Positions 4,301 to 57,387 of a DNA stretch of 64,000 nucleotides are shown here, in pieces. The translations under genes and the position numbers were made by a program. This DNA comes from Lycium barbarum (Eukaryota; Streptophyta; Magnoliopsida; Solanales; Solanaceae), in the NCBI RefSeq assembly GCF_019175385.1, contig NC_083346.1:84644543-84708542 (forward strand), given 5' to 3'. The notes beneath the pieces are model-generated. The model was not told the DNA's origin and searched no databases. It worked only from the letters and a program-made list of their open reading frames with translations. Position 1 is the stretch's first letter; the number at the start of each line of letters is the position of its first letter.

Positions 4301-7300
4301 TGTCACGACCCGACTGGGGGCCATGATGGGTACCCGGGGCTATCCACCGAGCACTGGTCATTCTGCTACTTATCATACTCGTTAAACGTTCATTCATCAA
4401 ATTCATACTCAAATCATAGGAAAATCATTTTTCATTTGAAACATAATTACCTTTATATACGTAAGCCCTTTGGCTATCCAATAACACACACATACATATA
4501 TACATATATGCGCTTATCAAAATCGTGAGACCATACTACCCACACATACGCATCAATAAGCCTCTACTAGAGTACTAGACGTATGGACGGGACAGGACCC
4601 CGCCGTGCCCCAAACATATATGTACATAAAACAGTAAATCACTAGCACCTCCGGAATAATGGAGTGCTTTCAAAACTCTGCTTATCGGCTTCTACAAATC
4701 TGGATCGCCTCCCTGTCTACCTGTGGGCATGAACACAGTTTCCAAAGAAAACGGACATCAGTACGAATATTGTACTGAGTATGTAAGGCATGAATGAAAT
4801 AAACATAATAGAGAATCATAAGACATAACCTGCGTAACTTTTAAGGGAGGATACCTTTCGTTCCTATATCATATATTATCACGGTACATGTATCATCATA
4901 GCTCATACATCGTCGTATTATACATATATATATCATAACACCGCATCTGTTCATACATATTAAACGTTATCCATATACGGCCACGTAATGGCTTGACAAT
5001 ATCACATACATATCCTCCGGGCTTTTCCTACATATATCATAGTCATGCGTATATCCTGTACATATTCATATCATATACGTATTCATATCATATATCATAT
5101 ACATCATATACATATTCACATCATATACATACCTGGCCAACCATAGCTTTAGGGTTACACATACTTGGCCAACCAAGGCTTCAGGGTTATACATACCTGG
5201 CCCTACCAAGGCTTCAGGGTTACATCTACCCAACTGCAGTGGTGCGCGCGCGTTACATAAATATATACAGATTCTACCCGGCCTTATAAGCTCGAGGTTT
5301 CATAATAGCCATACATAGGCACATATATACATATATACATAAAAGCCCATAATTATCTTTAGTGTCATCACTATTATCATCGTCATCATTATCATCATCA
5401 CTATCAACATCGTCATTATTACCATCACATATGTCACATAAACTTTTCATAACCTTTCATGGAGCATACATTTGGATTTAACGACAATCTATGAGAATCG
5501 CATCGTATTCGTAGCATGAACTTCGTAATAATGTTGTATAATAAACTTTATAATCTCTAACTCAGGCTCCTCATTACTATCATCTTATCTATGGCATATC
5601 TCTTTCCTTAATCTCATACGGAACCTCTTATGAACATAGAGTCGTAACTTTTTGGAACATTGGTCATAGGACACGTATTAGAGCTTGTAGACAACCTATA
5701 ACAATGTCGGGGTGACATAAGGTCGAGAGCCCCCAATTCCCTTATGGAGCATTCATAAGCATTATGCCTCACCTTAAAGGAATTAGCACATAAGGTGAGT
5801 GTAGTCAATGAACAACATCAATGGATCTTAATATGGATCATTAGCCTTGTAGAACCATAACATTATAGGCCTTAGAATCCTTAGACTTAGACTCATCATC
5901 ATCTTTACCGTATTCGTAACATACCTCTTATCTTATCCCATATGGCTATTCATAAACATAGGCTCTTAGTTTTCCGGAAGGTAGGAGAGTCATGGAGAAG
6001 TAAGGGAAATACTATCATATGAATCATATAAGGATCATTAGCTTCATAGGAATATCATATCATGAGCTTTATGACTTCTAGACTTAGATTCATCATCGGT
6101 ATCGTCATATTCGTAACGTATCTCTTTTCTTTGTCTCACATGAAGTTCTTTATACTCGTAGATTCATAGTTCCCATTTTGTAGGAAAATCATAGGGAGAT
6201 AGGAGGATTCATACCATATGATTCATGCCTTAGAATTAAAGGACTAGCCTTACATACCTTTTTCGTTTAACAATTTCCATCGCTTGGTTGTTCTTCTTCA
6301 ATGTTCACGTTTCTACCCCTAAGAGAATTCGCATTCACCTTGGCTAATCGATTACATAAACATGCTTACTAAAGCTAGAGAAAATTGGGAAGCATTTCCT
6401 TTGTTTATACAACCTTTCCCATATTGTATATCAACTCCCAAACATTCATAATAATGTTCACATTATCATAACCAACAATCTTCATTCATCTACATTACCC
6501 TCGTTCACAATTCCACTTCAATTCATCCATATTCATGGTCATAGTATACTAGTGTGTTTTCTTGCATATAATACTTATCCCATGTTCTCAATATCATTTA
6601 TAACATACTTATAATCACAACATATTAATATTCACAACTCATTCCAACCACTACTCAAAATCTCATTATTCTCTTGTTTATGACCCATTTCCTATATCCT
6701 TCTACAATCCAAGTGTTTCAACTTTCAAATACCTTAAACAACATGTAAATACCATAAAACCTACCTTAGATAGTGTGGGAATGAACCTTGAGTGCAAACA
6801 CTTCACTTGAGCAAAACCCTAGTTTCACCTTCACTTGGATTCCTTGTCTTGGATGAACTTTAATGAATTTCTTACACTTGATTTCCTTGGTTTGATGTAA
6901 TTGATCACAAATACCCCTTGAATTCTTGTTGGAGAAGTGTATAGAGATGTTTTAGAGAGAAGGTGTGTGAAGGGAAATGAAATGAAATGAACTTGGATCC
7001 CTTTATTAATACACAAAATCTGTCCCGTCCCATTTATACGGACACACATATGGCCCGTACAATTTATACGGTCCGTATGTATGACCGTATAATGGTTCCA
7101 GTGGAGTCTCTTCTCTGGACAAGTTACACGGCCAGATCTACGGTCCGCATAATGGACCGTACAATTCACAGTTTTTCAAAAATCATTTTCGTCGACTCGT
7201 TTGATCTCCAATCCTTATGGAACCTTCTTGACACTTGTCTATCACTTCATTAACAATCTAGGGGTTGTTATAACTCTTCTCCAAAGCATCATTAAGTCAT

Positions 7301-7508: not shown

Positions 7509-9935
7509 ACCGAGCACCACTCATTCTACTAGTCATCATATTTATCCTGCATGTATTTACTACTCTCGCACTTCTAGTCATAGAGGAAAACCATTTTCAC
7601 TTTCAAGCATAGCCACATTCATATAGATAAGCCCTTCGGCTATCAAAATAATATATATGTACATATACAATGAGAAAATCATGAGACCATACTACCCACA
7701 CATACGTATCTATGAGCCTCTACTAGAGTACTAGACATAAGGACGGGAGAGGACCCCGTCGTGCCCAAATATGTACACAAAGCAATATATCCAAAATAGC
7801 ACCTCTGGAAATAATGGTGTGCCCCTGTAAGTCCGATGATCAGCTCCTATGAATCTGGGTCACCTCCCAGTCTATCGGTGGGCATGAACACAGCGTCCAG
7901 AAAGAAAAGGACGTTAGTACGAACATTGTACTGAGTATGTAAAGCATGAACAATAATAATATATCAATGAAGCAAAGACACATCAAGTGAGGAACAACCT
8001 GTAATTGACTGTCACTTAAGATTGAAATAATGCATGCTAACTTACTTCATAAACATCATCATATCATGTATGCATATATATAAGCTGCCCGACCATATAG
8101 GTAGGTGTTATCATCATTAGCCCGCGGCCAGGCCTCCCGCGTCCGGGGTAAACGCCCCATGCTGCCTACTAGTGGTGTCTGCCTATGCCATCTGGACATG
8201 GTGTATACACTGCCCGCCTTAGCGGTGTCCGCCCGGCCATATAGGTGCGGCGTACTATCATCATCATGTACTCATCATAATGCATGCATAAGAACATAAG
8301 GACAATTATACTTCATCGGGGTGACATAAGGTCGAGAACCTCATATTTCCATTATGGCATAGTCATGAGCATTCTGCCTCACCTTGAAGGAACTAACATG
8401 GTAAGGTGAGTGTGACAACAATAAACCACATTAAAGGGGCACATCAGGATCATTAGCTTTATAGAAATATTATATCATGAACTTTAGGATCTTTAAACTT
8501 AGGCTCATCATCATCATTATCGTACTAATATCATATCTCTTATCTTTATCTTATGAGAAGCTCTTTATGAATATAGACTCATAATTTCCGGGATGCAAGA
8601 AGGTTATGGAGGATAAAGATAGTCATGTCATAAAATTCATGCCTTAGAAAAGAAGGGACTAGCCTTACATACCTTTTCGTTTAGCTACTCTATCACTTGA
8701 ACGTTCCCCTCCAATATTCACGTTTCTACCTTCAAGAGAGTTTGTACTAATATTAGATAATCGACAACATGAGCATGCTTAAACTAAAGCTAGAGAAAAT
8801 TGGGCAGCATCTCCTTTGTTTATACAACTTTCTTCATATCATATATCAACTCCCAATCATCAATAATAATATTCATAATATCATAATCAATAACTTTGTC
8901 AAGTTCGTCATTATCCAATTCCCATAATTTCCTCTCAAGGTCATCCATAAACATGATCATAATACAACATTGCATTCATTCTCCTATAATGTCTCTCCCA
9001 TGTTCTTAATATCATTTATAACATTATTATACTTATAACATCTCAAGAATTATGATTCATGTCAACCACTATTCAAGAATACCATAATTTCACACTTGAG
9101 CTCCGTGTTCCACTTTCTTCCATAATCTAGGTCTTTCAACCATTCAACATGCTAAATAACATGTAATGGCCATGAAACTCAGCTTTGATTGTGTAGGAGC
9201 AAGTTTTGCATGAAAATGCCTCACTTGAAGGAAAACCCTAGCTTCTCTTCCAAAGAATTTCTTGACTTCTAGCAACCTCTAAGAGCTTCCTTCCACTTGA
9301 TTCACTCAAATTTATGATATTGATAATTGATCTCTCTTGGATTCTTGAAAATGAAATGTGTGGAATGTTCTAGAATCTTGGAGAGAAGTGGAGAAGTGTG
9401 GAAAATGAAAATAATAAAGTGGGAACATCATTTTATACTTGAAATTAATTCAGCCCGTCGGGACTTCTACGGACACTTATATGCTCTGTATAACATTATA
9501 CGGTCCGTATAAGTGACCGTACTTCACCATCAGAGAAACAACATTTCTGTTGGGTGTTATACAGACCCTTATCGGACCGTATAAGCGGTCGTATAACCCC
9601 ACCTTTCTGAAATTATTTCCGTCGTTTGTTTGATCTCCAATCCTTATGGAACCTTCTTAGCACTTGTTTAACACTTCATTAACAATCTAAGGGGCGTTAT
9701 AACTCTTCTCTAAGACATCATTAAGTCAACATTAATTCGGTACTTGTAAATCCTTTCCGAAACACCACGTATCCTTTGCCTTTCCTAACGAACTTTCTTC
9801 TCTTGCCTTAATCATCTTTGGAATCTTAATGGGAACCGTTAAGTACTACTCCTTACTTGTGGAAACATCCTATACTTCTTTTCCAGTGTTAATCCATTCA
9901 CTGTGCAATGACATGAGTTTTTCGAAGATGTAACA
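7509..9935 (-). repeat. Related LTR, split by E1 (left about 40 bp outside the window)
   Basis: It resembles the E1 LTR throughout but starts at 'ctaccgagcacc', which corresponds to about base 45 of the E1 LTR's terminal sequence. It ends ...GATGTAACA at 9935. E1 evidently inserted here, leaving the missing end to the left. Landmarks: ACGGTCCGT sites at 9500-9508 and 9572-9580, GCTGCC box 8791-8817, GTATGT donor with intron start at 8672, triple hairpins 7876-7933. Whether it is a solo LTR or one end of a full element cannot be decided here. Confidence 0.75.
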
Positions 9936-17473: not shown

Positions 17474-19709
17474 TTTGACGACCCAAACCCATGGACCTTG
17501 ACGAGTGCCCGATCACTGCTGACCAAGCACCCTTAAACGTGTACTTGCCATATGTTGAATAACTTGGTGGCCCATTTCTAACTCATATATGAGCGATAGC
17601 ATCTGCTACAAAATTTATGCAATAAACTCTGTCTCGACAAACTCATAATTTATACACGTGGATATGTATATATAGGCATACGTGCAACGGATGACAACAC
17701 AGTCCGACAAGGTCACTACATGCGCTGTACGGAAAATAGGATACCACAAAGCTACATGATATTTCCACTATATACAACTGTCTACAAACCTCTATGGAGT
17801 CTAGCTGTAGAAAGACAGGACAAGGCCCTGTCATACCCACATCTGTACACCTCATAAATAGCATACCAAAAGTTGTAGCTCCGGATCAAGTGGAGCGCAC
17901 TGACTGCGGCTGAGGAGATCCTACTGGTCTAGCTCATCCGAATGACTACCTGAACTTGCGGGCATGAACGCAGCGTCCACAAAAAGGGACGTCAATACGA
18001 ACAGTGTACTGAGTACGTAAGGCATGAATAGTAACATAGTAACAGATACCAAATATGGAAAATAACATAATGAAAAATATAGAGCATAACATGAGATAAT
18101 GGAATAATCTGTACATCTGATTGCCTCTTAAGGCGGATACCATGCATGCTCATCTTTCTTTGAAAAACATTTCTCGTACATGTATACATAAAATAGAATT
18201 GCTGCGGAACGTGCAGCACCATCCAAAAGCATATTGTTTTGCCGCGGAACGACCGGCCCAATCCATATATATATATATAGTATAAGCAACATGCATGAGA
18301 TCCCAAAGAAAGCTATAACCCTATCAGAGTGACGTAAGGTTGGTAACCTCCGATTATATTATGGAATAATCATCATCGCTCTATCTCACCTTGAAGGAAC
18401 AATTATTATAAGGCGAGATCAACAACAATGAATAAAATCGAGAAAATCATGAAATAAGCTCAATAATCTCATAATAGTATTAAAATCATAAGCTTTGGAA
18501 TTTCTAGAATTAGAATCATCATCACCATGTTCGTCATAGAAAACATCTCATCTTTAGCATCATAAGAAGCTTTAAGAATCATGAACTTCTAGATTTTGAA
18601 AACAAGGAGGTTATGGAAACATTTATGGAATCATAACATAAGAATCATGCCTTTGAAAGAAAGGGACGAGCCTTAACATACCTTTTTAGTCGCCTTAACT
18701 TTAACTACTCAACGCTTGTCCTTCCAGGTTTCATAAATCTATATTCAAGAAATCTTAATACTATTGTTAAAGTCACCTTTATACTCTTATCTTAATCCTT
18801 CAAATAATTCTTTCTAGAATCTGCCGAAATTTCAGCAGCACCTTCTCTATTTGTATCCCTAGCCCGAAATCGCAATTACCAGCAACCAACAACACAACAA
18901 AAATACCACCATCAACAACATCATCACTAATATCAACATAATCTATAAGACATCTCAAGTGACTTTTATCCGATTTCTCCACCGACAAATTAACTATACG
19001 CTCATTTAATCACTCTGTCTTCGTGAATAACCCAAAAATAATGTGAATAAGAAGAGATTCATACCTTATTCTTGTTCAAACAAAAACATCTTCAACGTCC
19101 ACCTTAAATCCAAGCCAAAATCCTCCACAAAACAATATTAGAATCACGACTATACGCTACCCGAGCCTCGATTAACCAAAATCACTTCAAACCGTCAACT
19201 TTTTATGACATAATTGCCCTTTGTGTGTGCTGAGCATTTTTTTTTTCTGATTTTTGGTGAAACAATGGGGTATTGATCCTTTTATAAGGTTCTAAAATTG
19301 GGTCGGGTCACTGGAGCACGCGTTTCTGCTTTGTCAGCCTAACTTGTAACGTCCATAATTTTCTACTCCGATGTCGTATCGACGAGTGATTTTTTGCGTT
19401 GGAGACTAGACTCGAAGAACTTAATTTTAGGCTTATGAAACACCTTAAAACTCCTAATATACTAGGAGATATACCCCTCTAAAGTTGACGAAAAAAAATC
19501 TGTCCAAAATCCTGCCAACTTTTTCCAAATTTTCTTCAAACTTATTTTCTTCGATTTGCTTGATCCCGGATTCTTCTGAAACTCTCCATACATGATATTT
19601 ATCATTAATAATACTTCATTCCTCACAATCCAAAGTTTTTTACCTAGCAATAGCTCGACATACTTACATTCAAATTTAACAGTGCTTCTCCAAGGTATGG
19701 GGTGTAACA
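17474..19709 (-). repeat. Solo LTR G, target duplication GAAAT
   Basis: GAAAT at 17469-17473 and 19710-19714 flanks a single LTR whose ends read TGTTACACC (19709, minus strand) and ...GGGTCGTCAAA (17474; two changes from the usual ...TCGTGACA). Removing LTR and one duplicate restores the protease frame (MEI joined to TANYNLLLG). Contains the GCTGCC box (18817-18848, with CTGCCGAAATTTCAG), a GTATGTTAAGG donor (intron start 18681) and the triple hairpins at 17956-18011. Confidence 0.88.
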
Positions 19710-21468: not shown

Positions 21469-22252
21469 TTGAAGGGTAAAAATTATTTTTGTTGCTTAAT
21501 CAATCAAGTTCTAAGTGAAATACAAATTCAAGGAGGTGATAGCAACATTGGATATTGAATCGGGAAAGAAGAAATTGCGAAATTGGAGCAATTAAGAGTA
21601 GAAATTCCTCCGAGCAAATTAAGGTAAGATTTTCTTATTTTGTGGTGAAATTGTTTTAATAATGGTGTAATGGAATTATTAAAATTGGATTGGACGAAAT
21701 TGGAAGTAAGAGAATGCATAAAATTGATGTTATAGGAAATTGTAGGTTGAAATGGATTTAGAGAAGTTGTGGGGTTGTTGGAATTGTTATGGGATGAATT
21801 GTGAGAATTTTATATGTATATCTCTATGGTTGGTATTTCTGTGTTAACAGGAGAATAATTGGAAATTCGGGTTAGGCGAATATATAGGGGAAATGCTGCC
21901 CGATTTTCGTTAAGTCCTTAATAATTAAAAACCCTTAACGAGAAAGTATAAGTTAAAGAATAAGTTCTATAAAGTGATTGTTACATCCGACATTTTTGTT
22001 CATTCGGAAAATTCAGGATAAATGGGCTTGTGATGAATAAGGCCATAATTGGACATTCCTTGGTATGCACGTGTAGGTTATGAATTTGATGGTGTGGAAT
22101 TACGAAAGGTGGCCAAGGGCAAAAATTGGAATTTTGGGAAGTTGTTCCATAAATTACAAATTCTAGCCTATTGGACAAAAAAAAAAATAAGAAAAACAAG
22201 GCCCATTAGGGAGGCCCAACCAGCCATGGTTGGCCCAAGACCATTAAAATTG

Positions 22253-22297
22253 GTCATGTGACTAGTCACATGACTAATTAGCATAAAGGATATATAC
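22253..22297 (+). promoter_or_regulatory. H LTR core promoter: perfect 22-bp palindrome plus TATA box
   Basis: Bases 22253-22274 are their own reverse complement (core GTGACTAGTCAC, flanked by CATG repeats). ATATATA follows at 22290-22296, and an A/G-rich leader starts within about 30 bp. The same pair recurs in the 3' LTR at 28231-28252. A dimeric transcription factor site is plausible. Confidence 0.6.
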
Positions 22298-23308
22298 ATG
22301 AATCAATGTTCATCCCTTAGAACATTCAAGAAAAAAATATAGAGAGAAAGGGGGAGGTTTCGGGTGAAAGAAAAAGAAAGGAAGAAAAGAAAAAAAAATT
22401 GGAGCCCATTCCTTGGTTCTAAAATTCATCTCTTGTGAGATTTGTACTAAGCACAAGGTGCTCTTCAAGTTGATATAAAGATTGTGGCAAGAAAACAACT
22501 TCAACCCCAAGTGAAGAACTTGAAGAAAGGTAAGGATTTCATGCTTTTGTTGTGTTAAAAATGATGTATGTATGTTGTAGTATGTGTGAATGAAGGAAAA
22601 ACATGGAAATTTTGTGTGTTGAACAACTTGGGTGGTGGCCGAATGCATATGTATGTATTGCATGCTTTTAATGGCTTGAATTCTTGTGTAAGTTAGTTGT
22701 AGGATGGTGGAGATTGTATTAGAAATGAAAGTTGAATGAATTAAGGAAAATTGAGAATTTTGGGGTGTGGCCGTGTGTGTGTGTTGGTGTTGGAAGGTGA
22801 GTTAAATCTTGTTAGCATGTTAATTGTGTTGTTATGGCCTTATGAAGTAGACGGAAGGATAATGGTTAAGCTAAAACGAAGAAAGTGTTGATTAAGTTGT
22901 CGTCGGAAAGTATGTCGCGTTATCGTGATTTCTTGAAAATATGATTAAGGATAATGAATTTGGAATGTAAAAACGTGTTGATGAACTTGTATGTGGAAGG
23001 TTGGAAAAATTGGATAAGTAGTGGCTTTAATGGAAAGTTTGTATGTTTGTATATCGTGTGGATATTGTGTGGAAATGGTATGATATGCCTCCGACGTATG
23101 CTATAATGATCTTGATGGATAATAGATGCGAAAATAATAAGTTTGGTTTGGAAATGTAAGTTTGAAACGAAAAATGTTTCGTTATGTTGGAAGATGGCTA
23201 ATGATGCCTTAATGTATGTCTTGATGTTTGTTGTTGTTTTGATATCATTCTCTGGGTTGTTGTGTTGGTTGTTGGCTGTGTTTTAACTTTTGGGGATGTC
23301 GTATATAC

Positions 23309-23334
23309 AGAGGAAATGCTGCCGAAATTTCGGT
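23309..23334 (+). promoter_or_regulatory. GCTGCC box in H 5' LTR
   Basis: AGAGGAAATGCTGCCGAAAT followed by TTCGG. It contains the 12-bp palindrome CCGAAATTTCGG and follows TATATACAG. The same box recurs in nearly all LTRs of this window (see findings) and at 29287-29312 in the 3' LTR. Confidence 0.6.
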
Positions 23335-24663
23335 AGGCAAGTATGTGTAAGCTTGGGGTATTGAAAGAATGAGACTAACCAAATGGTAAACTTGACCATT
23401 TCCAGATTTTGGACGAAATTTGGATTGACGCCGAGCGAGCATAAGGCGCCATCGAGGTATGTGAAGCACTTCTATACGCTCCTAGGCATGTTCTGGATGT
23501 GGTAGGCTCGGCCGCAAGCCCTAGGTCCGACTCCGTTCCCCGGAATTCGAGACGGAAAACCGCTCCAATTCCTTCAATTCAATTGAACCTATTTTCTTAC
23601 AAATTGCCCTTAAAGTGAGATTTTGTACAAAATTTCCCCAAACGGAGTCGGAACACTTCCGAATGAGTATGGGTTACCTCATAAGGTCAATTAGCAATAA
23701 TTTACGTATATAGCCTCGGGTTGGTCCGAGGTGGGCCCATAAGGCCCGATACTTCCGGTACGATTTTAAATACTTCTGTTTCGGGTCCGATTTTCTCTAA
23801 AAACTTCTGAATTATTATTTTGTGTATATTATGGCTATTTTTGTGTAATCTATATAACATGCTTTCTGAACATCTGAGCATCACATTCTGATAATCTGTC
23901 GTGCCTTCCCAACTAGGTTATAGGCGCGTACTATGCATACTATCTGGACATTCTGATTTTGGCTCGCCGTTTGGCACCCTTCAGTTTGATTGAGTCTGTA
24001 TGTTGAGTCTGTAGGTAGGTGGTTTCTCATTTATCGATTCGTGTCTGTCTCAATGCATTCTTTCACTGCGACCCGGGCCAGGTTCTGTTATCGTGCACAT
24101 TTCTATGCATTGTTCACCGCGTCCCTCGGCGTACGGGCCGGGATCTGTATGTCTGTATGATCTGTGTATGGGGATGGCGGCCAGGATGGCATATGATCTG
24201 ATTTGATTCTGTCTGTCCACCGCGTCCCGTACTAAGAGGGCCGGGTTCTGTTACCGCGCCCCCAGACAGGGCCGGGATCTGTATGAATATATGCGTGTGC
24301 CATCTGTATTTATAAAGCACACGCCTTTGTATGATTTTGTATGACTCTGTGCTACTCTGCATGCATAATTCTGTCCGTCATACTACTGTCTGTCTGTCCG
24401 TCTATGTTACGACTATTTCTGTTTGTCCGTATGGCTTCTGCTTCTGTATGTCCGTATGGATTCAGATTCTGCTCGTCTGTCCGTATTATGATTTCGTCTG
24501 TCTGTCCGAACTATAATCCTGTCCATTTGTGTGTAACACGATTCTGTATGTCTGTCTGGATCATAACTCTGTCCGTCAGTTTGACTTATGATTTTGCCCG
24601 TTATATTTCTGTGACTCTAGTTCGGACTATGTTTATATCTGTTACGTTTCTGCTTTACATACT

Positions 24664-24719
24664 CGGTACATTTTTCGTACTGACCCCCGTTCTTCGGGGG
24701 CTGCGCTACATGCCCGCAG
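24664..24719 (+). promoter_or_regulatory. Triple-hairpin cassette in H 5' LTR
   Basis: Three adjacent hairpins: CGGTAC/GTACTG (24664-24669, 24677-24682), CCCCCG/CGGGGG with TTCTT loop (24684-24700), CTGCG/CGCAG (24701-24705, 24715-24719). Conserved in 13 LTR copies here with pairing-preserving changes; copy at 30642-30697 in the 3' LTR. Confidence 0.65.
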
Positions 24720-25146
24720 GTACAGACGCACCAGGTGATACGCCGCCCGCGTAGGTTTCCGATTCTGCTACTTGAAGAGCTCCTTTGACTCGGAGCATAT
24801 ATCTTTGGTATATACCTTCTGTCTTTGTGTGCTCTGTATGTCTGTATATTCTGGGTACGGCGGGGCCCTGTCCCGTCATATGATTCTGTATGTCTGTAGA
24901 GGCCTGTAGATAGATGTGTGGGTTACGGGTTTCGTCTGTATGGTAGCCTTATCGGCTTATCTGTAAATGTCTGCATGTTCAGGTATATATATATGTTTGC
25001 GCGCGTGCCGTATCTGTATCGGCCTACTTCTGTAATATCCGTTTGAAAACAAAAATCTGTACGATACGAAATTCGGTCAGGTAGGTATGTACGGGTACCC
25101 AGCTAGGGTGCCAGTCGCGGCCCACGGGGTTGGGTCGTGACAGAAG

Positions 25147-25158
25147 TGGTATCAGAGC
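25147..25158 (+). other. Primer-binding site of H
   Basis: TGGTATCAGAGC, complementary to the 3' end of initiator tRNA-Met, four bases after the 5' LTR. Confidence 0.93.
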
Positions 25159-25202
25159 GGTTAGTCCTCGGAATGTCTACAGGCCGTGTCTAGTAGAGTC
25201 TT

Positions 25203-25236
25203 GTTTATCGATGTGTTGTGCACCACATCTATAAAC
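25203..25236 (+). promoter_or_regulatory. Leader hairpin of H between primer site and gag
   Basis: GTTTAT and GATGTG (25203-25215) pair with CACATC and ATAAAC (25224-25236), one C/T mismatch, 8-nt loop. It lies inside the predicted leader intron, so only unspliced genomic RNA would carry it. Confidence 0.6.
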
Positions 25237-25345
25237 GGGAAGCTACAGGGCATTTAGGATGTTACCCTTCTTTGGATCTTTAGATCGTGCGATAGAACTG
25301 TATTAGTAGGATGAACCTCTCCTAACGATCTGCTATGTTTCAGTG

Positions 25346-26776: not shown

Positions 26777-27053
26777 GAAATGTATGTATGGATAAGTTTG
26801 TATTTTGCTGAATTACGTGATCTCGTACTTCTGGGTATTAGAAATAGTAAGATAAATGTTAATTTGTTAGATACCGAGATTCAGAAAGGCAATATGGTAA
26901 TGGTATGACTTAGCCGGGGGTGGGACCCGCTACCAAAAATTTTTCCGAAAATCTGCGAAGACCCCGAGTTACTCTAAAATTTCGTGACAAAGGTCGTGAG
27001 GGGCAATCGACGAAATTATATTAGCCCTAACGCGTCGAAATGCATGAAAGTTT
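26777..27053 (+). other. H internal region after gag, no gene
   Basis: No protease or RT sequence. Bases 26900-27000 contain CCGAAAATCTGCG and CGTGACAAAGGTCGTGA segments of unknown role. Confidence 0.4.
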
Positions 27054-27920: not shown

Positions 27921-27956
27921 ACATTCGAGGACGAATGTTCCTAAAGAGGGGGAGGA
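27921..27956 (+). other. Pre-PPT hairpin and polypurine tract of H
   Basis: ACATTCG (27921-27927) pairs with CGAATGT (27932-27938) around AGGA. AAAGAGGGGGAGGA (27943-27956) then abuts the 3' LTR as plus-strand primer. Confidence 0.85.
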
Positions 27957-30900
27957 TGTTACATCCGACATTTTTGTTCATTCGGAAAATTCAGGATAAA
28001 TGGGCTTGTGATGAATAAGGCCATAATTGGACATTCCTTGGTATGCACGTGTAGGTTATGAATTTGATGGTGTGGAATTACGAAAGGTGGCCAAGGGCAA
28101 AAATTGGAATTTTGGGAAGTTGTTCCATAAATTACAAATTCTAGCCTATTGGACAAAAAAAAAAATAAGAAAAACAAGGCCCATTAGGGAGGCCCAACCG
28201 GCCATGGTTGGCCCAAGACCATTAAAATTGGTCATGTGACTAGTCACATGACTAATTAGCATAAAGGATATATACATGAATCAATGTTCATCCCTTAGAA
28301 CATTCAAGAAAAAAATATAAAGAGAAAGGGGGAGGTTTCGGGTGAAAGAAAAAGAAAGGAAGAAAAGAAAAAAAAATTGGAGCCCATTCCTTGGTTCTAA
28401 AATTCATCTCTTGTGAGATTTGTACTAAGCACAAGGTGCTCTTCAAGTTGATATAAAGATTGTGGCAAGAAAACAACTTCAACCCCAAGTGAAGAACTTG
28501 AAGAAAGGTAAGGATTTCATGCTTTTGTTGTGTTAAAAATGATGTATGTATGTTGTAGTATGTGTGAATGAAGGAAAAACATGGAAATTTTGTGTGTTGA
28601 ACAACTTGGGTGGTGGCCGAATGCATATGTATGTATTGCATGCTTTTAATGGCTTGAATTCTTGTGTAAGTTAGTTGTAGGATGGTGGAGATTGTATTAG
28701 AAATGAAAGTTGAATGAATTAAGGAAAATTGAGAATTTTGGGGTGTGGCCGTGTGTGTGTGTTGGTGTTGGAAGGTGAGTTAAATCTTGTTAGCATGTTA
28801 ATTGTGTTGTTATGGCCTTATGAAGTAGACGGAAGGATAATGGTTAAGCTAAAACGAAGAAAGTGTTGATTAAGTTGTCGTCGGAAAGTATGTCGCGTTA
28901 TCGTGATTTCTTGAAAATATGATTAAGGATAATGAATTTGGAATGTAAAAACGTGTTGATGAACTTGTATGTGGAAGGTTGGAAAAATTGGATAAGTAGT
29001 GGCTTTAATGGAAAGTTTGTATGTTTGTATATCGTGTGGATATTGTGTGGAAATGGTATGATATGCCTCCGACGTATGCTATAATGATCTTGATGGATAA
29101 TAGATGCGAAAATAATAAGTTTGGTTTGGAAATGTAAGTTTGAAACGAAAAATGTTTCGTTATGTTGGAAGATGGCTAATGATGCCTTAATGTATGTCTT
29201 GATGTTTGTTGTTGTTTTGATATCATTCTCTGGGTTGTTGTGTTGGTTGTTGGCTGTGTTTTAACTTTTGGGGATGTCGTATATACAGAGGAAATGCTGC
29301 CGAAATTTCGGTAGGCAAGTATGTGTAAGCTTGGGGTATTGAAAGAATGAGACTAACCAAATGGTAAACTTGACCATTTCCAGATTTTGGACGAAATTTG
29401 GATTGACGCCGAGCGAGCATAAGGCGCCATCGAGGTATGTGAAGCACTTCTATACGCTCCTAGGCATGTTCTGGATGTGGTAGGCTCGGCCGCAAGCCCT
29501 AGGTCCGACTCCGTTCCCCGGAATTCGAGACGGAAAACCGCTCCAATTCCTTCAATTCAATTGAACCTATTTTCTTACAAATTGCCCTTAAAGTGAGATT
29601 TTGTACAAAATTTCCCCAAACGGAGTCGGAACACTTCCGAATGAGTATGGGTTACCTCATAAGGTCAATTAGCAATAATTTACGTATATAGCCTCGGGTT
29701 GGTCCGAGGTGGGCCCATAAGGCCCGATACTTCCGGTACGATTTTAAATACTTCTGTTTCGGGTCCGATTTTCTCTAAAAACTTCTGAATTATTATTTTG
29801 TGTATATTATGGCTATTTTTGTGTAATCTATATAACATGCTTTCTGAACATCTGAGCATCCCATTCTGATAATCTGTCGTGCCTTCCCAACTAGGTTATA
29901 GGCGCGTACTATGCATACTATCTGGACATTCTGATTTTGGCTCGCCGTTTGGCACCCTTCAGTTTGATTGAGTCTGTATGTTGAGTCTGTAGGTAGGTGG
30001 TTTCTCATTTATCGATTCGTGTCTGTCTCAATGCATTCTTTCACTGCGACCCGGGCCAGGTTCTGTTATCGTGCACATTTCTCTGCATTGTTCACCGCGT
30101 CCCTCGGCGTACGGGCCGGGATCTGTATGTCTGTATGATCTGTGTATGGGGATGGCGGCCAGGATGGCATATGATCTGATTTGATTCTGTCTGTCCACCG
30201 CGTCCCGTACTAAGAGGGCCGGGTTCTGTTACCGCGCCCCCAGACAGGGCCGGGATCTGTATGAATATATGCGTGTGCCATCTGTATTTATAAAGCACAC
30301 GCCTTTGTATGATTTTGTATGACTCTGTGCTACTCTGCATGCATAATTCTGTCTGTCATACTACTGTCTGTCTGTCCGTCTATGTTACGACTATTTCTGT
30401 TTGTCCGTATGGCTTCTGCTTCTGTATGTCCGTATGGATTCAGATTCTGCTCGTCTGTCCGTATTATGATTTCGTCTGTCTGTCCGAACTATAATCCTGT
30501 CCATTTGTGTGTAACACGATTCTGTATGTCTGTCTGGATCATAACTCTGTCCGTCAGTTTGACTTATGATTTTGCCCGTTATATTTCTGCGACTCTAGTT
30601 CGGACTATGTTTATATCTGTTACGTTTCTGCTTTACATACTCGGTACATTTTTCGTACTGACCCCCGTTCTTCGGGGGCTGCGCTACATGCCCGCAGGTA
30701 CAGACGCACCAGGTGATACGCCGCCCGCGTAGGTTTCCGATTCTGCTACTTGAAGAGCTCCTTTGACTCGGAGCATATATCTTTGGTATATACCTTCTGT
30801 CTTTGTGTGCTCTGTATGTCTGTATATTCTGGGTACGGCGGGGCCCTGTCCCGTCATATGATTCTGTATGTCTGTAGAGGCCTGTAGATAGATGTGTGGG

Positions 30901-31120
30901 TTACGGGTTTCGTCTGTATGGTAGCCTTATCGGCTTATCTGTAAATGTCTGCATGTTCAGGTATATATATATGTTTGCGCGCGTGCCGTATCTGTATCGG
31001 CCTACTTCTGTAATATCCGTTTGAAAAAAAAAATCTGTACGATACGAAATTCGGTCAGGTAGGTATGTACGGGTACCCAGCTAGGGTGCCAGTCGCGGCC
31101 CACGGGGTTGGGTCGTGACA
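27957..31120 (+). repeat. 3' LTR of H (3164 bp)
   Basis: Same length as the 5' LTR. Differences noticed: CCAGCC/CCGGCC, ATAGAG/ATAAAG, TCACAT/TCCCAT, CTATGC/CTCTGC, GTCCGTC/GTCTGTC, CTGTGAC/CTGCGAC, AACAAAA/AAAAAAA. Carries all landmarks of the 5' copy at +5978. Confidence 0.93.
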
Positions 31121-31920: not shown

Positions 31921-32654
31921 TGTAATCTATGCCTATCATACGCCGTAGAGTCAGTTTCTGTCCTATAGAGTTATGCAGATATTCTCAGATGTTAGCCACA
32001 GATGCGTTCTATTATTGAGGTTGGTTTTCATGATTCATCTGTACTTGATGTTCTTATGCTTTATATACTCAGTACATATTCCGTACTGACCCCCTTTCTT
32101 CGGGGGGCTGCGTTTCATGCCCGCAGGTACAGATAGTCGGTTTGGTGACCCTTCAGCATAGGACTTCTACTCAGCTGTCTTGGAGAGCTCCATTGTTCCG
32201 GAGTCTAGAATTTTGGTTCGAATCTTATGATGTACATGTATATGTTTATCCAGGGGTACGGCGGGGCCCTGTCCCGTCATATTTCGCTATCGATACTCTT
32301 AGAGGTCTGCAGACATATGTGTGGGTTGTGTATGGGTTTTGTTCAGCTGTATCTATACGATGTGTTGTGGTATGATGTTCGTCTATAGTGGCAGCCTTGT
32401 CGGCTTGCATATGATATTGATATGTGATGGCAGCCTTGTCGGCTTGCGTATCATTTCATGATATGATCAGTTGTGACTCCTCAGGAGACAGTGTATCTGA
32501 ATATACATATATGATGACGCTATGAACCTTCAGAGTTCTTTTGTAAAGTTCCATATTGTTCGTAGTTTCAGTTTGACTATATCTGATAGGTATGTATGCG
32601 GGTGTCCAGGTCGGGCACCAGTTACGGTCAAAGGGATTGGGTCGTGATAGTACG

Positions 32655-36387: not shown

Positions 36388-38431
36388 TGTAACATCTCAT
36401 ACCTAGAAATTAGGCTATGTTCATAATTCAGGACTTAGAAAACCAGCTGGGGAGTGTTAGGATTAAAATTCACTTCAGTTTACCGAACTACATTTTCACG
36501 CCAGGTTTTACGGGCGGTAAAATGTTTTATGGCTCGTGAAACGAACCGTGGAATAACCCCAGGAGACCCAGCTCACTGGAACTATTTCATGATGGGTTTT
36601 ACGGTCCGTATAATTTTCACAGACCGTACTTTGTACCGTGGAAAAAAAAAATTGCGGTCCGTCTTTTTTACTGTAAAAGAGGAGGCGGAAAATCAAGTCA
36701 CTTTAACCGTTTCACAGTCACTTTTCACGGACTGTGCAATTTTTTACTGGCTGTTAAAAGTGACCTTAAAATCAACTGACGACTGAATAGTATTTAAATG
36801 CGTTTTTCAGTTCTTTTCCATATTTTCATTCCCTACAAGTCCTAGAATGAAGTTCTTCTCCTCTGTTCATCCTAATACATCAAGGTAAGTCTACTCTAAG
36901 CATCCCAAGTGAATTCCAACATATGTTCTTGAGTATTAAATAGGAATTCATTGTACTAAACCTAGGGTTTTCAAGAAAACCCACCCAGGGGCTTCAAGAT
37001 TAAGGCTTTTGGATTTCTTCTCCAAGTTCAAATAATTGTTACAAGTTTTATAGCGATTAAGGTATGTAGGGTTTCTATCTACTTGGAAAACATCATCATT
37101 CTTCCCTACACCATGTTCTTCCATGATTGTACGAAAGTTTACCAAACTGGGGTTTTAAATATGTCCATGATAACCCTAAGTATATGTACCATGATTCACT
37201 ATGTTTGTATGATTAATTCATTATTGTGTTCTTAATATTCCATTCTAGTTATTGAGAATCTGTTCGTAATCCATGAAAAATCCATACTTTGCATTCCATG
37301 GGTTCTTGAATGCAAGATATGAAATTTTATGTATATTTCATGAAATTCTACATGCAACCATGTTTTATACAAGTTATACTATGTACTTATATCCATGCTA
37401 TACTATACTCATTAAATCATATTTAAAAGCTATGTTTATGAATGAAGTTTACAAGTCATGATTTCAAGCCATGTTATACAGACCATTTGCCCAGATGCCA
37501 ACCATATCCATGTTCATGTTTTGGGAGTAGCATTGGTTTACCGAGAAGGCTCAGATAGCTTGAAACTACGTATGCCAATGTACGGAAGGGTCGATCCACC
37601 CAGATTAGGACGACACCTTCAGACAGTTGAATTGGATCCATTTTCATGTCATACTTATGTCTTATACCCTGGCAAGGTGTGGGGCTACTCTGCTAGTCAG
37701 GCTAGGTACCAGACTCCACGAACCCACATGATGATTCCATGTTGTCGGTCATACTACGACTCTCCCACCATATATATATATACACACACACATGAAACGT
37801 TTTACTCACGTTATACATTTACTCATGTCAGATGATGCTCATGTTCATTTTCAGCTTACAGTTTCAGTTTCAATCCTATTCTTTCATGTGCCATGTTTAT
37901 TGTTTTAGGTTGCTTTACATACCAGTACAATTCAAGTGTGCAGACGTCCCCTTTATTGGGGCTGCATTTCACGATGCAGATTTACAGGATGACGGATCAG
38001 CTAGTTAGGACTCAGCACGTCTCAGCTTTTGGTGAGCTCCATTTTATTCGAGGTTTTAGCTTTACTTATGTTTATTTCAGTCATGCAATTAAGGTATGTC
38101 GGGGGCCTTGTCCTGGTAAACAGTTTAGTAGTCAGATTCATGTCAGAGGTTTCATATACTAGTCAGTTATGTTATGTAAGATATTCAAAGTCATCTAGCC
38201 ATTTTGGCTCATTATTATCATGTTTATTCAGATTATTCCGCATTATGATATTATGATATTTTCAGACTTATGATTTATGGTCCCACGCTTTACTAAATTT
38301 ATTCATGTTCATAGTTTATGCCGCATTAGTTCATTCCCATGTTGAGTCAGCAAGCCATGTTGTTCGTTCGGTCACATGCAGTCAGGCATCGAGTGTCGTG
38401 TTATGCCCAGGTCGTGGTTTGAGGCGTGACA
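36388..38431 (+). repeat. 5' LTR of element A (2044 bp)
   Basis: TGTAACATCTC...GGCGTGACA, followed by the primer site, so it is a 5' LTR. ACGGTCCGT at 36601-36609 with related half-sites to 36663; TATTTAAAT near 36790; donor CAAG/GTAAGT (intron from 36885), a perfect consensus; AAG/GTATGTAGG (intron from 37062). The hairpin cassette is diverged: SL1 barely pairs, SL2 is CCCC/GGGG (37948-37961), and SL3 is CTGCAT/ATGCAG (37962-37979). No GCTGCC box seen. Confidence 0.85.
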
Positions 38432-39017: not shown

Positions 39018-40977
39018 TGTCATGACCCGACCAGGGGGCCATGACGGGCACCCGGAGCTAACTGATCGAGCACCTCTTAACATATCCTCATAATCACATC
39101 TAGGTGAGCCCCATGGCTAACTCATAATTACCATGTGCCAGATAACACAAATCTTTATCAGAAGTAGGTGCCTTTATATAAACATGACTAACAGTGCCCA
39201 TATATACACAAGCCGGCAATGCTATCAAAATGATACACTAAATATGAGCCAACAAGGCTGGGGGGATATCTAGCTATACACATCTGTCAACGAGCCTATA
39301 TGAAGAGTATGTAATATCATAAAGATGGGACAGGACTCGTCCATGCCCATACATGTACACAAAAGAATAATACAACCTACTACAGCTCCGGATCAAATGG
39401 AGCACTGCTATGCGATCTCTGACGAAGCAACCTAGGGGTCGAGCCTATATCCCTGTCTACTTACGGGCATGAACGCATCGTCCACAAATAAAAAGATGTC
39501 AGTACGGATAATGTATTGAGTATGTAAAGCATGAGTAATAACATGATAAAAGTATAAAGGATAACATAAGATAGGAGGGCCATTTATACCTCCTGAGACG
39601 TTCATCATGCTTACTTAACCTTTTTCTATAGAAAAATCTCCATACATATACATATACATATAATGATATCATACTCAACCAACTAGGTTCGGTGTCATCC
39701 GTACCCAGCCATGACAAGGCTCGGGGTTGTCCGTACCCAACTGCAGCGGTGTGCGCGCAATACATATCATACCCGGCCATATAGGCTCGGTGTCACAACA
39801 TAGCTTTATGTATTTATATTTACACATAACAATACATAAGTAAAAACAACGTCATCATCACCATTATCACTATATCTTTCCCTAGAGGATCAACTATCGT
39901 AGGATGAGATCAATGATATCATGAGAATATTAAGAACTATGAGCTTTAGCACCTCTAGGATTGGAGTCATCATGGAAGACATTATGAATTTCATGTATAG
40001 GTTCACAACAATGGAATCATGCCTTAAGAAAGAAGGGTTAGCCTTACATACCTTTATGTCTTCTTAACTACTTATCATTCTTCTCCAAAGTCCGAAAAAT
40101 CTACATTCAAGAGGATTCATATCAAGGTTAGGTCTCAAAGACACTCTTAAGTTCAAGCTAGTATAATTTGTGAGCTAGGGAAAATTGGGCAGCATTTCCC
40201 CTATTTCATCTACTTCTACTAAATTTCCAAACAACTCCCAATCAACAAAAACATTATCAACAATACTATAATTAAGAGACTTCACTCAAGTTATGCTCCA
40301 TTCAATCCCCAAAACCCCTTTTCATAGTCAACCCATAACAATAATTTCAACATACTCCATGTACGCTTGTATACAATGCTTCCTCATCATCATTATAACC
40401 AGTCATAACAAGATTATAATCATGACGTACCAAAAATAATAAGTTAAGAAAATTTATAGCTCAAAATATCTTCAAACTCATATTTGAACTCTCTTTCTAT
40501 TTTCCTTCTTCAATCAAGTTGTATAACAATCAAACAACCTTAACTACATGCAATAGATGTAAAATCTTACCTTAATCACATAACAACAAGCCTTGGATCA
40601 ATTTACTCCACCAGAGTGAAACCTTCAACTTCAACACCAAAAGAATTCATGAGCTCCACAAACACTAATAAGCCTTCTAGCACTTAATCTCTTGATCCTC
40701 TTGGGTTTGGTGTGGATTAGTACATAAACTTAGGGAGAGGGTTTTGGAGAGCTCTAAGGTCTGAAATGGGGAAATAATGAAGCCAAATGGGGAAAAATGA
40801 AATATATAAAGCTTCACTTAAAATCCCGCCGGCAACTTTGACGGCCATTTTGACGGATCGTCAAACACCCTACAGTCCGTCAAATAGACCGTCAAATAGC
40901 CCAACCAAACAGGCCTCTCTATGACCATTTCATGGTGGTGGCTCCATCATTTGACGGGCCGTCAAATATCCTATGGT
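39018..40977 (-). repeat. LTR X, partial, split by element B
   Basis: Minus-strand LTR ending ...GGGTCATGACA at 39018. Triple hairpins 39461-39518, GTATGTAAGGC donor (intron from 40051), GCTGCC box 40177-40202. Near its cut end lie palindromes of ACGGNCCGT type with TCAAA flanks (ACGGATCGT 40852-40860, ACGGGCCGT 40954-40962). The rest of its U3 should lie right of the window. Confidence 0.8.
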
Positions 40978-42971
40978 TGTCACGACCCAGCTAGGGGCCG
41001 CAACGGGTACCCGGGGCTAGCCGCCGAGCACCGCTCGTACTATCACTCATCTCGCTCATTTAATGCTCTCTTACTACATTTATGATCAAGCATGGGAAAA
41101 ATCATATTTTATGGGAAAACATGAATACCTTTACATAAATGTGCCCTTAGGCTATCAAAATAGTTATTATGTATATACATATGAATATACCACAATAGAC
41201 TTGTGAGACCATCTAACCCACACTACGCATCTACGAGCCTCTACTGACATACTATGCATATAGAAGCAACAAGACTCCGTCATGCCCAAAATATACATAT
41301 GTACCAAAAGAATAAACATAAGCACCTCCGAACAATGGAGTGCTCTCAATCAGCTGACCGCAGCTAAGAATCTGGATCGAGCTCACCTCCCTGTCTACCT
41401 GTGGGCATGAACACAACGTCCAAAGAAAACGGACGTCAGTACGAATGTTGTACTGAGTATGAGAGGCATAAACAATAACAATACATCAAGAAATAAGGGA
41501 GATATCAGATATGGATCAAACTGAACTGACTGTGAATCATATGAGAAGTAATGCATGCTGACTTACTTTCATACTTACTCATCATCTCATAAATGCATAA
41601 CATGTATATGTATATATAAACTGCCTGACCAAATAGGTACGGTGTGATAATCAATAACATTAGCCAGCATCCAGGCCTCCCACGTCCGGGGTACTATCTC
41701 ATGCCGCCCACTATTGGTGTCTGCCCATGCCAACTGGCCATGGTGTATAACATAGCTGCCCGCCTTAGCGGTGACTGCCCGGCCAACTAGCCGCGGTGTA
41801 ATATCATCATAACATGCTCATCACAATATTCATATCATAATATGCTTATCATAATGTATGCATAGGAATCAAGGATAACTATACTCTATCGGGGTGACGT
41901 AAGGTCGTGACCCCGATCTCGTTATGGAGCATTCATCGATAGTCTGCCTCACCTTGAAGGGATTAGCATATAAGGTGAGTGTGAGTAGTAAACTACATTC
42001 TTATCATTATGGCATCATCATATCATATCTCATATAGACATTTAGGGATATAGGCTTTTAGCTTTCCGGAATGTATGAACTCATGAAGAGGGGAGGAATT
42101 TATACTATAGGATTCATGCCATTAGAAAGAAAGGAATAGCCTCACATACCTTTGTCGTTTAGATAAGCTATCGTTCACTTGTTCTCCTTCGATATCACGT
42201 CGTTACCTTCACGAGAGAATTTGGACTAACGTTAGTTAATCGACTACAAGAACGCATTGTTATTCCTAGAGAAAATTGGGCAGCACTTCCTTTGTTCCTA
42301 CTACCTTTCCCATATCCTATATCGACTCCCAACATTCACATCAACATCCACAATATAGAGACTAACAATCATCATTTATATACATTGAGCAAAATCCACC
42401 ATTTCTCTCCAATTACTCCACATTCATGGTTATACCTCGTTATCACGTTTCCCCATACATAATACTTATTTCATGGTTTAAACGTCGTTTACAATGGATT
42501 CATAATCATAACGCATCAACATTCATGATTCCATTCCACTATCATTCAATTGTGACACTATTCACTCAGTAATGGCCCATTTTCTATATTCTTCTACATT
42601 TCAAGTATCTAAGCCTTCCAATGACTTGAACAACATGGTATAGTCATGAAACATACCTTAGATATTGGTTGAACAAGCCTTGAATGAGAATACTCCTCTA
42701 GCACTAAAACCCTTCTTCACCTCTTTTGGGATTTCTTGAAGGAGATGACTTCCAATTAGGTTTCATACACTTTGTTTCATAGAATTGGTGTTGATGATCT
42801 TAGTTTTCCTTTTATTTCTCTTGTAGTGGAAGAGTAGAGAGTTTCCTAGATAGTGCTTGAAGTGTGGAGAGTGAATGAAATGAAAGGGTCTCTTATATTA
42901 AAAAAACAAAGCTGGCCGACCATTATTATACGGACCAACATACGGTCCGTACTATTTATACGGACCGTATG

Positions 42972-45470
42972 TGTCACGACCCATCCCCGTGGGCTATGAC
43001 TAGTGCCCGAGCTGGACACCCATATGTACCTGTAAAACATAATCAGATTGATACTATAGGTTTTCAATCGATCACATCGTAATAAGATACGCACGCCGAC
43101 GAGGCTGCCACTGTATATATATCATTATACTACGCAAGCCGACAAGGCTGCTACAACAAAACGACAATATATGCAAGCCGGCAAGGCTGCTACAGCGACA
43201 GGACATCCATAATGATCATATAGACATAACTGATCACATCTGAATACAACCCATATACATGTCTACAGACCTCTAAGAGTTTAAACAGCGAAATATGACG
43301 GGACAGGGCCCCGTCGTACCCCTAGACAACGCATACATATATACATAAAAAAGGATCTGTACCAAAATCTAGGCTCCAGAACAACGGAGCTCTCCAAGAT
43401 AGCAGAACGGGAGTCCTAAGCTGGCGGATCACCAAAGCGAGTGTCTGCACCTGCCGGCATGAAATGCAGCCCCCCGAAGAAAGGGGGTGAGTACGGAATA
43501 TGTACTGAGCATGTAAAGCATGAAATACAGTAAACAGGATCATAACTGAAATAAGAAGTACAGAAAACGAGTACAACAACCAGAATACCAAAATGCTTGC
43601 TTTTGAGACACAAATCATGCATGTCAATATCATATATCATATCCGGCCCATTATGGGACTCGGTGAAAATGGTCGCCACCCCGTCTTTGGCGCCATAACA
43701 CAGCATACTTTAGAACATAGCATAACTCCGTAGCACAGCATAACTCCGTAACACAGCATAACCCCATAACACAACATAACACCATAACACAGCATAACAC
43801 CATAATATATATATACCGTACCCGGCCCTCTAGTGAGGGACTCGGTGAACAATGCAGTGGAATTGTGCACGATAACAGATCCTGGCCCGGGACTCAGTGA
43901 AAGACATATTGAGGCATGCACGAGCAGAGTAGTGAGAAACTATATGCAATTCAAAGAATTTTCAAAGACTCAATGGAATAATCCACGCGAGCTATCATTT
44001 AAAAATCAGGACAATAGTCATATTAAATACCTTTCGAATGTCACTCGGAACATATCAAATAACTCTCGAATGTCTTCATAAAGTATATCAAAAGGGCTTA
44101 GAAATCATAGTCATATGTCAATAAAGTATGAACATCTTATAGAAGTCCGAGCATTAGTTATCATAGAATTCCTAAGAATAGGAGCGGGTATATATCGACC
44201 ATTATTCAACGTACAGAAAACTGAAAGGGGAGGCTCACTCACTTGAAAATGGTAATATCAAGAAGTGAATAAAAATCATAAATGTCACTCAAAACTTATG
44301 AATGGAATTAACCCAAAGTTCATATCATTCATCACTTACATCTAAGACATGACAAAAGAAGGAAGGGACAGCTTTACATACCTGTTCGCGGCTATTCGTA
44401 ACCCGTTCGTCTCGTCGTTCTTTTAGCCTATTTAATATAAGAGTAACGTTATCGTTAGTAACTATATTTTCTAGTTTACAAGTCTATATCCCACTTCTCA
44501 TAGAACCTGTATTTCAGCTTATATATCCTCGTTTCGGGTTTTCTATTATCTAAAGACTTAGCGAAAATCCGGCAGTACTTCCCCTATATATTCGCCTATC
44601 CTAAATTTCCAATTGCCCTCCTGTTAATACAGAAATACCAACAACAACACATGGGTATAATCATATCTTCAATTCTTTCAATTCCATAAGGATAACAACA
44701 TGTTCATATCAATACAACCTCAACCTTAACTTTCTAATTCTTTCATTCCTTCGCCATAATATCCACGACAACAACAACTATAATGCAACTTAAAATTAAT
44801 TTACCATGTCTAATTAAAGCAGCCCTCTACACGGCTCAATTTACATTTCAACATCAACATCTACAACTTCTCACATTCATCACAATTTACAAATTTATAC
44901 AAGTTTAATCACCTCCAAAACGTGCTAAAAAAGATTAAATCATACCTTAACAAACCTTGCTCCTTAACCTTGCTAATCACTTGGATGTTACAACAATTTT
45001 ACACCTCCAATTATTGTTTTTCCTCCACCTCTCCCTCGGCTAAAAAACCTTCCATGGCCGAGCCTTGCTCTTTTTTTTTTTGGTGTTCTTGATTTTTCCA
45101 AATGAAAACAATGACTTATGAGTCATATTAGCAATATGTATATGACTTGCCTAAGCCTTACACGTGCCCCCTCTTATGTGTCAATAGTTGATGATTTTAT
45201 ATTTGTTTTTATTTATCTCGGGTGGGGCCCACTTGTATAAATTAACTTTAATTAATTTAATTAATCACTAATTCCCACTTAATAATCTAATCACAATTAA
45301 TAAATTCCTAATATCCAATAATAATAGTTTTATACTAAATAAAACTTATTAACCATTGGTTCTAATTTAGAAATTAAAAATTTAGGGTTTCTATTCCGTG
45401 TCCGGGAGGTCTTTAACTCGCGTCGATTCTCTTACGAATAACTCGACGTATAAAAATACGAGGTATAACA
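42972..45470 (-). repeat. 3' LTR of C (2499 bp)
   Basis: TGTTATACCTC (45470) to ...GGGTCGTGACA (42972). Five 18-bp 'agcataac.ccataacac' units at about 43722-43806; triple hairpins 43451-43507; GTATGTAAAGC donor (intron from 44381); GCTGCC box 44561-44585 (GCCGGATTTTCGC variant); TGACTCATAAGTCA and ACACGTG in the U3 near 45115-45165. Contains about 101 bp (44134-44234) missing from the 5' copy. Confidence 0.9.
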
Positions 45471-57383: not shown

Positions 57384-57387
57384 TTTT

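Follow-up and report, generated by a model that had tools for sequence, protein, structure and literature searches.

Three small hairpins, SL1, SL2 and SL3, stand in tandem in LTRs of a 64-kb stretch of Lycium barbarum DNA (the whole stretch analysed, hereafter the window), and the question raised by this cassette is what it does and on which nucleic acid it acts. All 13 copies listed in the initial annotation are present in the window on the claimed strands and in the order SL1-SL2-SL3. This includes the copy listed at 4731-4777 on the minus strand, but there the listed end is 12 nt short, as SL3 reaches 4719. The copies are located as follows, with the three hairpins given separately for the 5' LTR of the element that we call H.

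4719..4777, minus strand: cassette in a PBS-bearing LTR
7876..7933, minus strand: cassette
17956..18011, minus strand: cassette
24664..24682, plus strand: SL1 of the element H 5' LTR, CGGTAC paired with GTACTG around a 7-nt loop, without covariation
24684..24700, plus strand: SL2 of element H, CCCCC paired with GGGGG (CGTCC with GGACG in other families)
24701..24719, plus strand: SL3 of element H, CTGCG paired with CGCAG
30642..30697, plus strand: cassette in the element H 3' LTR, identical to the copy at 24664
32070..32126, plus strand: cassette
37923..37979, plus strand: cassette of family A, the most divergent, without GT after SL3
39461..39518, minus strand: cassette, a decayed copy
41399..41455, minus strand: cassette
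43451..43507, minus strand: cassette in the 3' LTR of a second element
49582..49639, plus strand: cassette
55454..55510, plus strand: cassette
57865..57922, minus strand: cassette in the 5' LTR of the second element, with three broken pairs

The stems read as quoted in the annotation, i.e. CCCCCG with CGGGGG (H), CGTCC with GGACG (D and G), ACGTCC with GGACGT (B) and CCCC with GGGG (A) for SL2, as well as CTGCG with CGCAG (H and D), CTGTG with CACAG (E1), TTGTG with CACAG (B) and CTGCAT with ATGCAG (A) for SL3, whose loop CATGCC is retained in 12 of the 13 window copies. A covariance model built from seven copies recovers all six held-out ones. Among these, 30642 is identical in sequence to 24664, and 57865 (E 1e-22) belongs to the same insertion as one of the model copies; 55454, 7876 and 39461 were found with E values of 2e-20 to 6e-18, and even the most divergent copy, 37923, scored E 4e-4. 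The best match of this model outside the cassettes of the window lies at 31920 (E 0.13). Rfam gave 0 matches at gathering score in the window.

The hosts of the cassette are Ty3/gypsy elements of Lycium barbarum, probably chromoviruses, for which Tekay/Del is presumably a candidate lineage. The window is densely filled with nested LTR elements, and its Pfam matches to Gag, reverse transcriptase, RNase H, integrase and SH3 domains stem from different elements. A Chromo match at 60429-60872 on the minus strand (2.3e-5, 24.6 bits with a cut-off of 25.1) is not tied to a cassette, and a domain search with the window piece 45432-45707 (minus strand) returned 0 families. Two insertions are delimited by the following features.

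21979..25142, plus strand: 5' LTR of element H; the element is flanked by the 5-bp target duplication GTGAT
25147..25158, plus strand: PBS of element H, TGGTATCAGAGC
27957..31120, plus strand: 3' LTR of element H, sharing 99.8% identity with its 5' counterpart
42972..45470, minus strand: 3' LTR of the second element, carrying the cassette at 43451
57387..59775, minus strand: 5' LTR of the second element, carrying the cassette at 57865

Element H (21979-31120) is young and has 3.16-kb LTRs with TG..CA ends, the target duplication, a purine tract and a PBS, TGGTATCAGAGC, which we take to be of the initiator-Met tRNA type. Its interior of 2.8 kb contains a gag frame only and leaves no room for pol; hence, the element is probably non-autonomous. 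The two nearest protein matches of its Gag are 95% and 86% identical, and the named matches come from Lycium, Solanum and Nicotiana. More generally, 15 of 49 copies are followed by a PBS with at most two mismatches, which lies 337-467 nt beyond the 96-nt model window.

The cassette is far better conserved than the sequence upstream of it. In a profile of 11 elements, from which 30642 and 43451 were omitted as second LTRs of two insertions, its mean pairwise identity is 72%, compared with 21-23% in four 75-nt blocks between -375 and -75. Random blocks of the window reach 20% on average, the highest of 15 draws being 23%. The block from -75 to 0 stands at 43%, and in successive blocks from +75 identity declines through 43, 40, 33 and 27 to 21%. 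The annotated view that the flanks are mostly unalignable thus applies to the far upstream side, which is at random level, but is only partly right downstream. Across the 1.67-Gb Lycium barbarum genome, the SL1 pattern ACTCAGTAC..GTACTGA has 35,882 + 36,150 = 72,032 matches, while the reversed pattern, used as a control, has 37 + 36 = 73. Sampling by coordinate, with 10 kb taken at 10 Mb and at 30 Mb of each of contigs 1-10 (twenty stretches in all), yielded 13 cassettes with E values of at most 0.01 in 200 kb, or about 65 per Mb, and the window, with 13 cassettes in 64 kb, is denser than this sample. Similar LTR blocks may well occur in other dicots. Two further patterns run for relatives elsewhere had no match, and the protein queries found no relative in the viral contigs. 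One viral contig (L001) with a pattern match, which scored 19.8 bits (E 0.0095) with the covariance model, was taken as a chance hit, as no plant LTR was seen by eye in 1.7 kb of it; further pattern matches in six stretches of genome contigs (L002-L007) reached E 2.6 at best with this model.

Conservation of this kind could reflect a selected RNA structure, as proposed in the initial annotation, and the pairing data support this for SL2 and SL3. Standard pairs make up 92.1% of the pair cells in the 12 distinct copies of the window, compared with 28-48% for slid partners. Cells changed on both sides of a pair number 13, as against 5.6 in shuffles, and pairs with such changes number 5, as against 3.0 (38 of 500 shuffles), which is less striking; pair types are no more numerous than in shuffles (12 vs 12.7). 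The compensatory changes in the window stem from these five pairs and represent few independent events. Because the copies are related, a tree-aware null was simulated, in which the tree comes from the downstream flank and each column is given its own number of changes. For the 13 window copies, 14 paired cells changed on both sides were observed vs 2.3 expected (0 of 5000 simulations), with 5 vs 1.7 pairs affected (P 0.016); by stem, SL2 gave 0 of 3000 and SL3 P 0.011. In a larger alignment, with 45 leaves taken from the genome, the corresponding cells are 56 vs 9.1 (0 of 1000), with SL2 at 0 of 1000 and SL3 at P 0.003. As in the window, the count of pairs affected exceeds the null only mildly (7 vs 3.8, P 0.033; P 0.16 for SL2 and 0.10 for SL3 as single stems), since a few columns carry most of these changes. 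SL1 displays no covariation in either set (P 1.0 in the 13 window copies and 0.65 in the 45 leaves) and is conserved in sequence; it could equally be a sequence motif.

Copies from the genome at large follow the same pattern, in alignments that were fitted to the covariance model and hence lean towards structure. The 13 copies sampled by coordinate are 92.7% paired, with 16 cells changed on both sides vs 5.4 in shuffles. In a set of 49 copies (47 distinct) that combines these and the 13 window copies with 23 loci fetched for SL1, and which is therefore biased for SL1, 95.0% of the cells pair, compared with 24-60% for slid partners. All 17 pairs are standard in only 22 of the 47 distinct rows. 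The two LTRs of the second element provide a small natural gauge of decay after insertion: both have lost one and the same pair, through different letters, while three others are broken privately, in a single LTR. Of the three pairs broken in 57865, two are intact in 43451 and the third is the one broken in both. At least the privately broken pairs must hence have been lost after insertion.

Could common ancestry, combined with CpG decay on both arms of a stem, mimic such covariation in a sequence without any function? Transitions of the CpG type arise easily in methylated DNA, and some of the paired changes are of this type, e.g. C-G to U-A in SL3; the small number of independent events in the window fits this explanation as well. 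It does not account for a cassette that is conserved while its upstream flanks are at random level, and the tree-aware null is rejected. Moreover, the SL2 switch involves two pairs, and in one of them (from C-G to G-C) both sides changed by transversions, which are not CpG-type. The absence of any function is thus already disfavoured and would be very surprising.

A second alternative places the function in DNA, as a palindromic protein-binding site or a promoter cruciform, with SL1 in particular serving as a binding site instead of a hairpin. The near-constant sequence of SL1 with practically no paired changes is in line with this idea, as are the equal folding of both strands and the motif YCGTAC, which is retained in 11 of the 13 window copies; a GTAC core is the target of plant SPL factors. 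For the cassette as a whole such a role is improbable, since SL2 and SL3 switch sequence and still pair, the SL3 loop CATGCC is conserved and G-U cells outnumber A-C cells. The latter excess amounts to 40 vs 23 in the 47 rows, 27 vs 18 in the 25 rows not selected by SL1 and 9 vs 6 in the window, and leans weakly towards the sense RNA. A dip in fold energy coincides with the cassette, and fold energies do not separate the strands, the antisense strand folding as well and, in several copies, better. These energies would also suit a structure that acts in an antisense LTR transcript, for which the chances appear very slim given the G-U excess and the location of the PBS and the splice-like signals on the sense strand. 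All in all, the cassette probably has an RNA-level role of some kind.

What this role might be was left open in the initial annotation. Between the cassette and the LTR 3' end, a chain of further recurring hairpins (24776-25142 on the plus strand and equivalents) was observed.

24776..24801, plus strand: hairpin SL4 (CTCC with GGAG), which recurs in other copies
24854..24876, plus strand: hairpin-like block SL5, found in 9 of the 13 copies
25119..25142, plus strand: hairpin at the LTR 3' end (GGCCCA with TGGGTC, then GTGACA), absent from 7876 and 55454

The SL4 pattern matched elsewhere in 43451 and 57865. The motif UGUA, known from the upstream element of plant poly(A) sites, occurs 15, 11 and 18 times per bin 150-300 nt past the cassette start vs 3.5, and is also raised upstream of the cassette (13 in one bin, at -150). 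The UGUA-rich stretch 3' of the cassette looks similar to the upstream region of a plant poly(A) site. No TATA box was found at a fixed distance from the cassette, so that the transcription start was not placed. From this arrangement, the cassette probably lies in the transcribed part of the LTR, i.e. in R or in R adjoining U5.

An R-region RNA element could serve 3' end formation, strand transfer in reverse transcription, nuclear export or the packaging of genomic RNA with no part in splicing. The covariation of SL2 and SL3, the presence of the cassette in both LTRs and its retention in an element that lacks room for pol would suit such functions, as would the UGUA-rich stretch 3' of the cassette and the additional hairpins towards the LTR end. 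We regard this explanation as possible, if on the unlikely side, as it leaves two features unaccounted for, namely a near-fixed GT just outside the SL3 stem and a leader end that resembles a 3' splice site.

24717..24722, plus strand: candidate 5' splice site CAG/GTA at the 3' edge of SL3, a moderate match to U1
25322..25343, plus strand: candidate branch point and 3' splice site, CTAAC ... TTTCAG, with the gag ATG at 25346

GT directly follows SL3 in 42 of the 47 distinct rows, despite its position outside the stem, and the T is invariant in the 13 window copies. Within the cassette and the following 400 nt, the AG/GT at the SL3 edge occurs in 37 of 47 rows (two of the 49 copies were dropped for short sequence), is the only one common to most copies and is followed by a next-best column with 15. 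The AG is needed in the SL3 stem as well. Position +5 of the candidate donor is A in 11 of the 13 window copies, and the match to U1 is moderate; some copies have better single donors in U5. One such stronger donor-like sequence, CAG/GTAGGT, was noted near the U5 end of element H (25078-25086, plus strand), and similar ones lie near the LTR ends of 32070, 43451 and 57865, in some families only.

On the putative acceptor side, all four window leaders have CTAAC or CTGAC and, no more than 14 nt from the first gag-like ATG, a YAG. This pattern, which was picked after looking and for which the ATGs of 57382 and 4296 were assumed to be those of gag, appears in 1-3% of shuffles of each leader and 12 times in the window with its 3074 ATGs. 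In a survey of 15 stretches, TTTCAG precedes ATGCC by 2-3 nt in seven of the eight leaders whose ATGCC starts at 159-165; in L055 an ATGCC comes further on and without TTTCAG, the window stretch at 59796 is not a leader, and the rest lack ATGCC. The combination is additionally present in L024 and L046 and absent in L030, and the looser background is 59 of 543 ATGCC. The places with TTTCAG directly ahead of the gag ATG are 25322-25346 and 38600-38650 on the plus strand, where a CTAAC resembling a branch point accompanies it, and stretches L031, L041, L045, L050 and L051. Family A (37923) has the 3' splice-site-like sequence, yet no GT after SL3. Three of eight related Gag proteins start with MFSAMPP, which reads like an unspliced TTTTCAG before the ATG. 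A search for retro-copied SL3-gag splice junctions with one narrow pattern, run with no positive control, gave 0 matches.

Since the AG/GT at the SL3 edge is common to most copies and the leaders end like 3' splice sites, a splice-donor role is now the best-supported candidate for the function of the cassette. Against it speak the moderate U1 match, the stronger donors in U5 of some copies, the need for the AG in the SL3 stem, the missing GT of family A and the empty outcome of the narrow junction search, as well as the lack of covariation in SL1, the mild excess of pairs changed on both sides, the equally good antisense folds, the variable TATA distance and the raised UGUA count in one upstream bin. 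Judged from sequence, the chance that the cassette acts as a splice donor may be put slightly below even.

The putative intron would contain a further structured feature, a hairpin in the leader.

25199..25240, plus strand: leader hairpin 3' of the PBS, with the self-complementary loop GTGCAC at 25218-25223

Comparable leader hairpins were noted elsewhere in the window (from 38484 on, plus strand; from 57342 and from 4254 down, minus strand) and in the fetched stretches L015, L024, L030, L031, L034, L041, L043, L045, L046, L050-L053 and L055. In a set of 18 leaders from the window and the fetched stretches, chosen by eye from 86 candidates and leaving out the disrupted L016, the loop holds a 6-nt palindrome in 15 cases, with five sequences, GCGCGC (6), GTGCAC (4), GGGCCC (3), GCCGGC (1) and GAGCTC (1); the leaders of L031, L050 and window 4254 have no palindromic loop. 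In random DNA from the same sources, a 6-nt palindrome occurs at those offsets in 6.9%, and a binomial value for this comparison would be too small given that the leaders are related. CpG decay could convert GCGCGC into GTGCAC, and explains the other three palindromes less easily. One of the four window leaders has two inner stem pairs changed on both sides, and the five basal pairs of the hairpin do not form in that register in family A. Because the palindrome is kept while its sequence changes, the hairpin looks like a kissing-loop dimerisation site and is a likely site of dimerisation initiation.

Combining these features, we propose a model in which SL3 would present the 5' splice site CAG/GT half buried in its stem. 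Use of this donor by U1 would join an LTR exon 1 to the gag exon, and the remaining U5, the PBS and the dimerisation hairpin would be removed, which would leave a messenger unfit for reverse transcription. Unspliced RNA, in turn, would retain the PBS and the hairpin and serve as the genome, with the hairpins of the cassette setting the splice ratio. Conceivably, and as known from foamy viruses, U1 bound at the cassette could also restrain 5' LTR polyadenylation. We assign a probability of roughly 0.3 to this complete reading, i.e. that these plant elements have a full retrovirus-like leader logic, in which an RNA-gated LTR donor is joined to an acceptor where gag begins, the PBS is excised together with the kissing-loop hairpin, and splicing itself thereby sorts messenger from genome, across very many copies in a single plant genome.

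Several described systems resemble parts of this arrangement. The HIV-1 leader contains a chain of small hairpins between PBS and gag, i.e. SL1 (DIS), SL2 (splice donor) and SL3, and GCGCGC and GTGCAC are palindromic kissing loops of HIV-1. Both systems thus share a chain of small hairpins, a donor (putative in goji) beside a hairpin and the palindromes GCGCGC and GTGCAC, whereas the goji triplet is part of the LTR, with just the palindromic hairpin lying 3' of the PBS. The closest described case of a donor held by hairpins in R is that of the foamy viruses, whose major splice donor lies within RNA hairpins of the R region upstream of the poly(A) signal; U1 binding at the R donor also blocks polyadenylation in the 5' LTR (PMC3694450). 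As would hold in our case, donor and poly(A) signal are there present in both LTRs (PMC3694450), but the cassette belongs to plant Ty3/gypsy elements, its donor is a prediction, and PBS and leader hairpin would both be lost with the putative intron.

Among plant elements, BARE from barley offers a parallel, as translation and replication of this LTR retrotransposon draw on separate RNA pools, with splicing for Gag; dimerisation and packaging signals are mentioned in the same account (PMC3735527). In contrast to the elements studied here, BARE is a Copia element, its splice junction lies just past the gag end, outside of LTR and leader, and its pools differ also by promoter, cap and poly(A) (PMC3735527). 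The ENE of Evade (Copia93) is likewise a functional RNA structure in a plant LTR retrotransposon, but is located between the ORF and the 3' LTR and has U-rich internal loops that form a triple helix with poly(A) (PMC12501189). No ENE-type U-rich internal loop flanked by stems was found by eye in the cassette alignment. The yeast elements Ty1 and Ty3 have cis-acting sequences for packaging, priming and dimerisation near the RNA ends; their packaging sequences are not precisely defined, their RNA is not split into pools, and the parts of this account at hand contain no such cassette (PMC4974528). Profile models of LTRs tie conservation in long R regions to stem-loops (PMC3601003), and these models as well as machine-learned LTR motifs describe conserved LTR structure with no such cassette in the portions seen (PMC3601003, PMC11656987); hairpins, palindromes and inverted repeats are not mentioned in the main text of the latter (PMC11656987). 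In line with the initial annotation, a literature search across titles and abstract openings found no published description of the cassette among the matches listed, nor were printed cassette strings found in papers among these matches.

Ty3/gypsy elements fill much of the large genomes of plants, and to our knowledge little has been reported on their cis-acting RNA signals. A structured, covarying module present at about 65 copies per Mb is hence a defined target for study, and the palindromic leader hairpin constitutes a testable candidate dimerisation site. How translation and replication divide the RNA of an element is a question raised by the work on BARE (PMC3735527). If the splice reading is true, it would offer an answer to how one element RNA is shared between the two.
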